Shown here one piece after another: positions 3,799 through 8,715 of a stretch of DNA of 10,332 nt. Within the stretch, counting starts at the first letter, position 1. Each line of letters begins with the position of its first letter. The position numbers and the translations under genes are program-made. The stretch is from Candidatus Endomicrobiellum dinenymphae (GTDB lineage: Bacteria > Elusimicrobiota > Endomicrobiia > Endomicrobiales > Endomicrobiaceae): positions 1 through 10,332 of the forward strand of contig JAIXNA010000021.1 of the NCBI GenBank assembly GCA_020328135.1, read 5' to 3'. Under the pieces are notes generated by a model. That model saw nothing but the letters and a program-made list of their open reading frames with translations. It made no database searches and was not told the origin of the DNA.

Positions 3799-4406
3799 TA
3801 ATCTAGACAACAACTTTGATATACTTGCTTATTCGCTCAAACACTTCCGATTCACTATTCAATCCGTCTATACCTATGAGCGACCCTGATTTCTTATAAT
3901 ATTTAATCAAAGGCTTTGTTTGCTTTTCATAAACAGAAAGTCTATCCCTTACGATATCCTCTTTATCATCATTTCTTTGAACAAGCTCTTTGTCGCAAAG
4001 ATCGCATCTGTTCACTTCCTTTGGAGGAAGCATTGTTACATGATAACTCGCTCCGCAAGAGCAAACTCTTCTTCCCACTATTCTTTTTACCGCTTCTTCG
4101 AAACGGACGTCTATAAAGAATACTACATCTATTTTTATATTTTCTACCTTAAGCATTGCATCCAACTCTTCTGCTTGCTTTACTGTTCTGGGAAATCCAT
4201 CCAAAAGAAATCCTTTTTTTACGTCATCTTTTGTAAGACGATTCTTAACCATGTTAACAACTATCTCGTCAGGAACAAGCTGCCCCGATGCAAGAAGTTT
4301 GCCTATAACTTTATCTGACTTTTTTACTTCTCTAAACATGTCGCCCGTTGATAAATGCATTACGCCAAACTTTTCTACAATTCTCTTAGCCTGCGTGCCT
4401 TTCCCT

Positions 4407-4573
4407 GCTCCGAGGGCGTTGCTCTGTTTTTATTGCTAAAACCGTGAAAAAATCCTTATTTATCAATATAAAAATTGCAAAAATGTGTCGAAACGCAAAA
4501 ATAAGGAATTATCGCCTGTAAATAAAGAAATTCTTAAATTTCACAACTAAAAACAAAGCAACGCCGCTCCGGG
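4407..4573. mobile_element. MITE-like 151-bp inverted-repeat element with 8-bp target duplications
   Basis: The element proper is 4415-4565. Its left end, GGCGTTGCTCTGTTTTTA (4415-4432), and right end (4548-4565) are inverted repeats matching at 17 of 18 positions. It is flanked by GCTCCGAG (4407-4414) and GCTCCGGG (4566-4573), an 8-bp direct repeat with one difference. A second, inner pair of inverted segments (about 4451-4460 and 4499-4510, ccttatt/aataagg) would let the whole element fold as a long imperfect hairpin. It encodes no protein. The insertion splits adk exactly. By structure it is a non-autonomous element moved in trans by a transposase not seen here. I do not recognise its family. 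Confidence 0.85.
4465..4491 (-). promoter_or_regulatory. Possible sigma-70-type promoter inside the element
   Basis: On the minus strand, TCGACA (5 of 6 to the -35 consensus) and TATATT (5 of 6 to the -10 consensus) are separated by 15 bp, pointing toward the adk remnant and map. The short spacer and AT-rich background make chance occurrence likely. It would be meaningful only if transcription starts are mapped there. Confidence 0.25.
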
Positions 4574-4597
4574 AGGGTCCACAAGTACACAATTCGC

Positions 4598-4731
4598 TGC
4601 CGCACTCCTGTTATTATCTTGCGTTAATTTTGTGCCAACTTTTACGCATGAACACAAAACAAAAATAAACAGAACAACAATATTACTGCATTTCTATCTT
4701 ACTATCCGGAAATATCCATCAAATTTTCAGA
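4598..4731. other. Spacer between adk and the sugar-porter pseudogene
   Basis: This holds only the old adk ribosome site (CTCCT at 4605-4609 on the plus strand) and AT-rich sequence. I see no gene, terminator or promoter that I would defend. secY, which precedes adk in many bacteria, is absent here. Confidence 0.6.
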
Positions 4732-6072
4732 TTAAATTGTTTTTGATTTTTTGTATAGAGTAATTTCTATATTTTCTAATGTTCTACCGCGAGTTTCAAA
4801 AACTTTGTGTTTTATAAATAAAATCGACACTACCACCATAACTGCGTAAAACATAAATAAAGTCGCCCCATGCTTTTTCAAAGAAAACCTGAAACGATAA
4901 TGTAACTATCAAATTTGCTAACCAATTTGCGACACACTTATACCACACCAAGCCTTCTTACTCTTAAAGGGAACATCTCGCCTATCACATTATCCATATT
5001 ATAGAGTAAAAAAGAATATATATGCATAGATAACACATAAGGTAACATGCCCCAAAATAGCACTCGTCGAAAAATGAAAAAATGATGAAAAAGACAAAAA
5101 TATCAAAGAGATTGCCATTCCAATGCCTCCGATGGTAAGCATCTTCTTGCGATCAAATTTATCCATAATAAATAAAGTAAGAACGGTAACAAAAACATTT
5201 AGAATACCTACACTGATAGCGTCTAACATTGCCGATGAAGTCCCAAGTCCGATAGAGATAAAAATAGTCGGAGCGTAATAAAATTACCGTATTAATACCT
5301 ATCAATTGCTGCGACATGGCAAGACCTATGACCAATGCGGATCTACCCATTTTTGCATTAATTCTTTTAAGCCGCCACTTTTTTCTTCGTCACTTGCGTT
5401 TTTAATTTCAGAGAGTTCTTGAGCAATTTCAGCAGCAGTGCTTTGACTTCTTAAAAAATTCAAAATCTCTATTACGTTTTTTCTCTACTTTTACTGACAA
5501 GCCATCTCGGGCTTTCAGGTAAATATAGATCTCCACAAAACAATATCCCTGAAAGGATTACAGCAAAGCCAAGCATTATGCATCATCCGTCCGTAAAACC
5601 TTTAAAGGACATATCAACTAGATATACCGATAAAATGCCAAGTGTAATACCATCAACTGATTCAATATGTTGATAGCACGCCGTGTGCGGCGAGATTTCA
5701 CAGGAGCTATTCCTGCCAGGTACAGAGACGCCAATGCAGATGCTCCTCCAACAGCAGTTCCTAAAAATATTCTTGCCAGCGTCAAAGTAACTGCATTTCC
5801 TGCACACGCTGATGACAAAGATCCTGCAGTAACAACGCGGCTGTCAACACCATTTTTCTACGTCTGTATCTATCGGATAGAAGAATGGTAACTGCAGTGC
5901 CTACTATGGTGCCAAGTAGTATGGTGCACAACAACCCCTTGTTCAAAAGAAGTCAAGACCACATCATTTTTAATAAATACTATCGCTCCGGATATAACAC
6001 CGGTATCGTAACCGAAAAGAAGTCCGCCTAAAGCATCAAAAAATAAATAACACCTCTGCTAATCTTTTTCAT
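4732..6072 (-). pseudogene. MFS sugar porter (XylE/GLUT-like), multiply frameshifted
   Basis: Sugar-porter family proteins are 12-helix secondary transporters for hexoses or pentoses. Fragments in all three minus frames follow the family order over a normal full length (about 445 codons). ATG at 6070-6072 begins MKKISRGV, and a shift leads to [17 protein letters not shown]. Next come [20 protein letters not shown] (the loop 2-3 signature), LARIFLGTAVGGASALASLY with LAGIAPVKSRR, GITLGILSVYLVD, GLAMSQQLIGINTVI, GILNVFVTVLTLFIMDKFDR, GEMFPLRVRRLGV and NWLANLIVTLSFQVFF. The C-terminus is VFETRGRTLENIE before the stop at 4732-4734. I count at least six frameshifts or stops, including one in a T-run near the start. 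It is beyond function. Its substrate cannot be told from the sequence. Confidence 0.9.
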
Positions 6073-8043: not shown

Positions 8044-8313
8044 CTATTTCTCGCATGCTGTTCTGTCGTATTTTACCTTTAAGACAATTTGAGTAACTGA
8101 AAGAACAAATCCAACCGTGTTTGATACATAAATAGGCGGCCTGCCAACCATTATACCATAGGTTATCCATGACAAAGTGGTTATCGTGGAAATAATAAAC
8201 ATTTGGATCGAAACACTTTTTGCGGATTTTGTTTTCCATGTTTTATAAACCTGCGGGACATAAGTTGCTGCAGAAAAACAACCGGCAAGAAAACCTATCA
8301 CGGAAGCAACCAT
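8044..8313 (-). CDS. SemiSWEET sugar transporter, copy A
   Basis: SemiSWEETs are three-helix PQ-loop proteins that dimerise in the inner membrane and let sugars flow down their gradient. The 89-residue product has three hydrophobic segments at about residues 3-20, 35-55 and 60-80. The PQ motif is in VPQVYKTWKTKSA (P20, Q21). A tryptophan in helix 2 (W49) and an asparagine in helix 3 (N65, YVSNTVGF) sit where the family's substrate-facing residues lie. AAGGAGAT lies about 6 nt before the ATG. It is a tandem paralogue of copy B, 117 nt upstream, with which it shares long identical runs (VPQVYKTWKTKSA, VSIQMFII, YGIMV, LKVKYDR). The transported sugar cannot be inferred. Confidence 0.92.
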   Translation of the reverse strand: MVASVIGFLAGCFSAATYVPQVYKTWKTKSAKSVSIQMFIISTITTLSWITYGIMVGRPPIYVSNTVGFVLSVTQIVLKVKYDRTACEK

Positions 8314-8430: not shown

Positions 8431-8715
8431 TCAACAGGACATAACCTTCTTTTTATCCGCTCTGTCGTATTTTACTTTTAAAATGATTTGGATAGCTGAA
8501 AGAAAAAACACAATAGTGTTTACCATGTAAACAATTGAGTCGTGGACCATTATGCCGTAAATTGACCACAATGAAGCATTTATTATGGCAATAATAAACA
8601 TTTGAATTGAAACATCGCCTGCGGATTTTGTTTTCCATGTTTTATAAACCTGTGGGACAAAAGTTACTGCGTTAAAAAAAGCAGCGCTCCAACCTACGAT
8701 TTCTGGAATAGTCAT
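8431..8715 (-). CDS. SemiSWEET sugar transporter, copy B
   Basis: This 94-residue three-helix PQ-loop protein is paralogous to copy A. Helices are at about 5-20, 36-56 and 61-80. The PQ motif is FVPQVYKTWKTKSA (P21, Q22), with W50 in helix 2 and N66 in helix 3 (YMVNTIVF). The helix 2-3 loop lacks the prolines found in copy A (HDSIV instead of GRPPI), and the C-terminus is longer and lysine-rich, ending KKKVMSC. GAGGAGAT lies about 7 nt before the ATG. Both copies look intact, so they could form homodimers or a heterodimer. The DNA 5' of it carries a hairpin with a T-run and the tail of a further copy. Confidence 0.92.
   Translation of the reverse strand: MTIPEIVGWSAAFFNAVTFVPQVYKTWKTKSAGDVSIQMFIIAIINASLWSIYGIMVHDSIVYMVNTIVFFLSAIQIILKVKYDRADKKKVMSC

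Follow-up and report, generated by a model that had tools for sequence, protein, structure and literature searches.

The window (the whole stretch of 10,332 nucleotides analysed here, part of contig C159 in the Candidatus Endomicrobiellum dinenymphae draft genome, G000) carries an adenylate kinase gene, adk, interrupted by a short MITE-like element whose ends are 18-bp inverted repeats (17/18 matching) flanked by 8-bp direct repeats (7/8 matching). The features of this region are listed in Table 1. When the whole window was scanned for 18-bp inverted pairs with at least 17 of 18 positions matching, 60-599 bp apart, the pair delimiting 4415-4565 was the single one found, and 40 dinucleotide shuffles of the window gave none, even with the direct repeat ignored. 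The ends and repeats described in the first-pass annotation are thus borne out by the sequence.

Table 1. Features of the interrupted adk region, in window positions
Feature	Position	Strand	Basis or remark
adk body following the element, with ADK and ADK_lid domains	3803..4412	-	First 131 bp identical to the secY-linked adk on C65
Left 8-bp target-site duplication copy (GCTCCGAG)	4407..4414	+	Sequence; empty C65 site is GCTCCGGG
MITE-like element, 151 bp	4415..4565	+	Sequence; end scan; family match with the window copy omitted, E=6.3e-21
Left terminal inverted repeat	4415..4432	+	17/18 complementary to right end
Right terminal inverted repeat	4548..4565	-	17/18; identical 18 bp on contig C227
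Right 8-bp target-site duplication copy (GCTCCGGG, likely ancestral form)	4566..4573	+	C65 comparison
5' remnant of second adk copy (adk2), GCG at start codon position	4566..4597	-	ATG in C65 and G020
Broken sugar-transporter gene upstream of adk2	4999..5818	-	Sugar_tr fragments 4999-5229 and 5618-5818; syntenic with G020 C5

There is no ORF of 60 aa or more within the element, and several stops are met across it on the adk strand, which leaves the downstream adk frame (185 aa from the next ATG, still matching ADK and ADK_lid) without the Walker A loop. Removing the element together with one repeat yields PPGAGKGTQ. A phage origin of the element was rejected, as the phage collection holds no match to window 4300-4680. 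The two fragments of the upstream transporter gene match Sugar_tr separately, in different parts of the profile. Further along the minus strand, the adjacent small ORFs 8044-8313 and 8431-8715 both match MtN3_slv and PQ-loop, and are predicted to be SemiSWEET-type sugar transporters.

Empty sites and the two adk loci

Three real uninterrupted alleles, one on contig C65 of the same assembly and two on contigs C5 and C81 of the sister genome G020, confirm the boundaries of the 151-bp insertion originally proposed. The same three bear out the claim that excision of the element and one repeat joins PPGA to GKGTQ, as PPGAGKGTQ exists as real sequence on C65 and SPGAGKGTQ on both G020 contigs. The target octamer is GCTCCGGG on C65 and GCTCCAGG on G020 C5; because C65 carries GCTCCGGG, the right repeat is likely to be the ancestral one and the left to have been substituted. 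The C65 site is paralogous, the last 131 bp of that contig being identical (131/131) to window 4412-4282. The C5 site, linked to the transporter gene, is orthologous: C5 shows synteny with the right half of the window (88.2% identity across 3191 bp and 90.1% across 2458 bp), positions 4566 and 4411 of the window adjoin each other on it with no element between them, and the ATG is present. C81 represents the secY-linked locus, likewise without the element.

The insertion was first described as splitting the Walker A motif of adenylate kinase. It does lie in Walker A codons, but the gene it splits is probably not the cell's only adk, and loss of the only adk is disfavoured: on C65, recognised ribosomal-protein genes are followed by a SecY-matching gene and then by an uninterrupted adk start. 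This secY-linked adk is intact for 52 codons, where the contig ends, so that its full frame is unseen on one contig. An adk protein search gave matches in 35 of 40 genomes, in two places in G000 (C159 and the end of C65) and in four in G020. Contigs C5 and C81 of G020 have 170 bp in common at 99.4% identity, and C57 and C65 of that genome 163 bp, also at 99.4%; judging from these overlaps, G020 would hold near-identical adk sequences with two upstream and two downstream neighbourhoods. The corners in G000 are the right of C159, C65, the left of C159 and C227. A parA/parB region is common to G000 C227 and G020 C65 (by Pfam matches for the C227 genes); it comes after a map piece in G000 and after an adk piece in G020, the latter breaking off around residue 133 in the 185-aa frame, which is close to codon 160 of adk.

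Identity at adk is diverged on one side of the element and complete on the other. In the region upstream of adk, the window is similar to G020 C5 (88-90%) and not to C65. The 32-bp coding remnant has 8 differences from C65 and 9 from G020 C5; the 131 bp after the element show no difference from C65. The 5' and 3' parts of adk around the element appear, by sequence comparison, to derive from two different adk loci. The interrupted gene is probably a second, decaying copy beside the broken sugar transporter, with alternative upstream start codons possible. The adk body at 3803..4412 is probably common to, or collapsed from, the two loci, and C159 probably joins them through it, with locus 2 on the right and locus 1 on the left. 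We infer that either gene conversion has kept the interrupted copy similar or the assembly has collapsed it.

A dispersed family among congeners

A search with the window element gave matches at E<=0.01 in 28 of 59 genomes, those with E<1e-5 being confined to G000, G010, G032 and G033. A 16-copy model (window copy included; 75 candidates scored per genome under strict filters, so that weak copies may be missed) gave 28 matches in G010, 27 in G032, four in G033 and one in G000 at E<=1e-4, not all of them full length, and none in the 37 other congeners, G020 included, among the 41 congeneric genomes searched at that threshold. A 15-copy model built without the window copy finds that copy at E=6.3e-21; the best of seven control sequences (the window reversed, two G000 contigs and four G020 contigs) reached 0.28, and the element piece on contig C227 reached only 0.48. 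The family is thus present in three congeners, and a scan for its core pattern named Endomicrobiia bacterium MS502-22 and MS499-36 (G010 and G032) as carriers.

Full-length congener copies measure about 140-155 bp, making this a family of about 150 bp. Their ends are related to those of the window copy in G010 and G032, with a weaker family likeness in G033; end sequences vary among copies, and in some both ends differ together. Duplications are mostly unreadable in the older congener copies, one G032 copy showing TCACCATG/TCACCCTG (7/8) provided that two changed bases are counted into its right end. For another G032 copy, on C9, the exact empty site is unreadable: orthologous flanks with a shorter spacer exist in G000, G020, G030, G033 and G016, and the spacer read in the first four of these holds no copy and is too diverged for a duplication to be recognised, while the search in G010 returned no orthologous flank pair. 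Further copies, in the genome or in relatives, had been anticipated from the window alone. The multi-copy family does exist, but in the congeners; in G000 itself the searches found a single full copy and the piece on C227, and no donor copy (the draft is 90% complete, and the shortest of the five small contigs taken whole has 3034 bases, so that shorter contigs may have escaped the searches).

Some family copies in G010 and G032 are halves; those at L118, L126 and L159 adjoin a different dispersed repeat, which begins at about ACTAACATA..AAAAGTACAATAGAAGTACTATGAAACA and at L159 is followed by degenerate tandem repeats. Half elements followed by an ATG were considered as an autonomous partner and rejected, as no long reading frame begins at that ATG in the loci examined.

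Flanks may have been exchanged at a family copy. A unique right flank, B, adjoins left flank C in G032 (L189) and left flank A in G010 (L185), and flank A in G032 (L182), like flank C in G010 (L188), runs into other sequence, which has no more than its first few dozen bases past the element in common. The C side GTAGCCGG (L188) matches the B side GTAGCTGG (L185) at 7/8, with a boundary uncertain by one base, which suggests that C-B is the older join. Read from draft assemblies, this exchange is a hint of recombination between copies, and so of rearrangement via the element.

The first-pass annotation reasoned that a non-autonomous element implies a transposase elsewhere in the genome. No partner was found in the five Pfam families searched. 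PF13610 (IS6/IS240-type) was above cut-off in none of 39 genomes, with one weak match in G013. In the five genomes G000, G010, G020, G032 and G033, PF01609 was above cut-off in none (one weak match, in G032), and the same was true of PF01610 and of PF00872. As no IS6/IS240, ISL3, IS256 or IS4/IS5 transposase is above cut-off in the MITE-holding genomes, a derivation from these types finds no support. PF12762 (IS1595) occurs in 6 of 39 genomes, with one full-length gene, in G010, and pieces in the five others. The draft genomes being incomplete, the helper could have been lost or missed.

That gene belongs to a full-length IS1595-type element at L169 (G010 C25), 1261-2020, with GGGGCTGACATAGATAAATT ends and the 8-bp repeat TATACTTA on both sides. 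It resembles the MITE in having ends that begin with GG and in its flanking 8-bp repeat, but the ends themselves do not match those of the MITE, and it was rejected as a partner. The five-family search yielded no insertion sequence with the matching ends that the annotation had anticipated. The same contig bears a phage-type integrase gene, and may be foreign.

Origin of the insertion and its meaning

We consider it probable that a non-autonomous transposon of the MITE kind, moved by a transposase acting in trans, inserted at GCTCCGGG, among the Walker A codons of a second, redundant copy of adk, with 8 bp of target duplicated. This copy, adk2, would have lain beside the broken sugar-transporter gene and has lost the ATG from its start position; the functional adk would have stayed in the operon behind secY, and the insertion would postdate the split from the G020 lineage. 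Several observations speak against this account: the searches recovered neither a transposase with matching ends nor a second full copy in the same genome that could have been the donor, C65 ends 52 codons into adk, the fold-back on C227 at the same target is explained only as an artefact, the duplications of the older family copies are mostly unreadable, and the 32-bp remnant is at least as far from G020 C5 as from C65.

If instead the assembly of C159 is correct, it is the adk of the map-rpoA operon that the element interrupts, recombination between the adk copies has swapped their flanks, and the intact 5' end on C65 continues into the other locus. The contig as assembled favours such a reading, as does the flank exchange at repeated DNA between the sister genomes G010 and G032. 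We nevertheless think it unlikely, since secY-adk-map is the usual bacterial order, G020 falls into four separate corners (C5, C81, C57 and C65), as expected of a collapsed repeat, and an intact adk 5' end exists even so.

Another possibility is that the junction of element and adk is a chimera from whole-genome amplification or assembly. The draft has 1,121,256 bases in 229 contigs, with completeness 90.15. Its contig C227 (L044) is 3 kb long. Within the first 91 bases of this contig, part of the element is followed by the element end and the target site seen at adk, both oppositely oriented, and a piece of map comes next; the last 108 bases (L044 2966-3073) are strand-flipped relative to G020 C65. 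Strand flips at either end of a contig are typical of amplification chimeras, which these resemble, and the fold-back piece is probably an amplification artefact. The genome also resembles the Repli-g amplified drafts of PMC8809381, five Endomicrobium genomes obtained from single cells of Reticulitermes flavipes protists, with completeness of 93.3 to 96.6. A chimeric origin of the junction would, on the other hand, make a coincidence of the 7/8 duplication at the exact element ends, the copies of the same length elsewhere and the matching empty sites, and we hold it to be highly improbable.

It is just as improbable that the repeat is a conserved regulatory or RNA element, and an RNA element was rejected: the window copy folds far better than shuffled sequences (z=-6.4 and -6.3), but much of that fold is long pairing between the end repeats, the alignment of 16 copies has no consensus fold (a weak test, its ends being poorly aligned), window 4200-4800 has no Rfam match at E<=1, and the element sits inside coding sequence with a target duplication and with empty sites that speak against such a role.

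The preferred reading, a MITE inserted into a redundant adk2, agrees with what was found of the element: it has no coding capacity, and it has terminal inverted repeats, a target duplication with an empty site, and dispersed copies. Its best label is a new orphan MITE family in Endomicrobia, of a known kind. Prokaryotic MITEs are similarly short and non-coding, with terminal inverted repeats and direct repeats, are moved in trans and inactivate dispensable genes (review PMC10969869, in its accessible part); they are divided into type I and type II, an assignment that would need a related autonomous insertion sequence, and none was found here. Another MITE in an intracellular symbiont genome is MITECca01 of Cardinium cOegib, of about 240 bp, for which the accessible text of PMC9769881 gives an IS982-family parent and 169 copies; here no parent was found, and there is one full copy in the genome itself, with 28 and 27 matches in two congeners. 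The literature search found no paper joining Endomicrobium with miniature inverted-repeat elements and none on pseudogenes in Endomicrobiia genomes; one Endomicrobium study (PMC11257099) identified insertion sequences via ISsaga, and the accessible part of its main text does not use the term MITE.

A more specific version, which we find rather doubtful, is that an orphan Endomicrobia MITE dependent on a transposase type outside those tested entered this genome from outside as a single copy, that its copies reshuffle symbiont chromosomes, and that the adk insertion bounds ongoing gene conversion between the adk copies.

The insertion is an ordinary route of gene decay. It shows cleanly how a very small mobile element can bring such decay about, since empty sites are available both within the assembly and from a sister genome. 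The case also cautions that, in a draft, an essential gene that looks broken may be a duplicate with the wrong neighbour attached. The MITE family itself may help to trace rearrangements among Endomicrobia.
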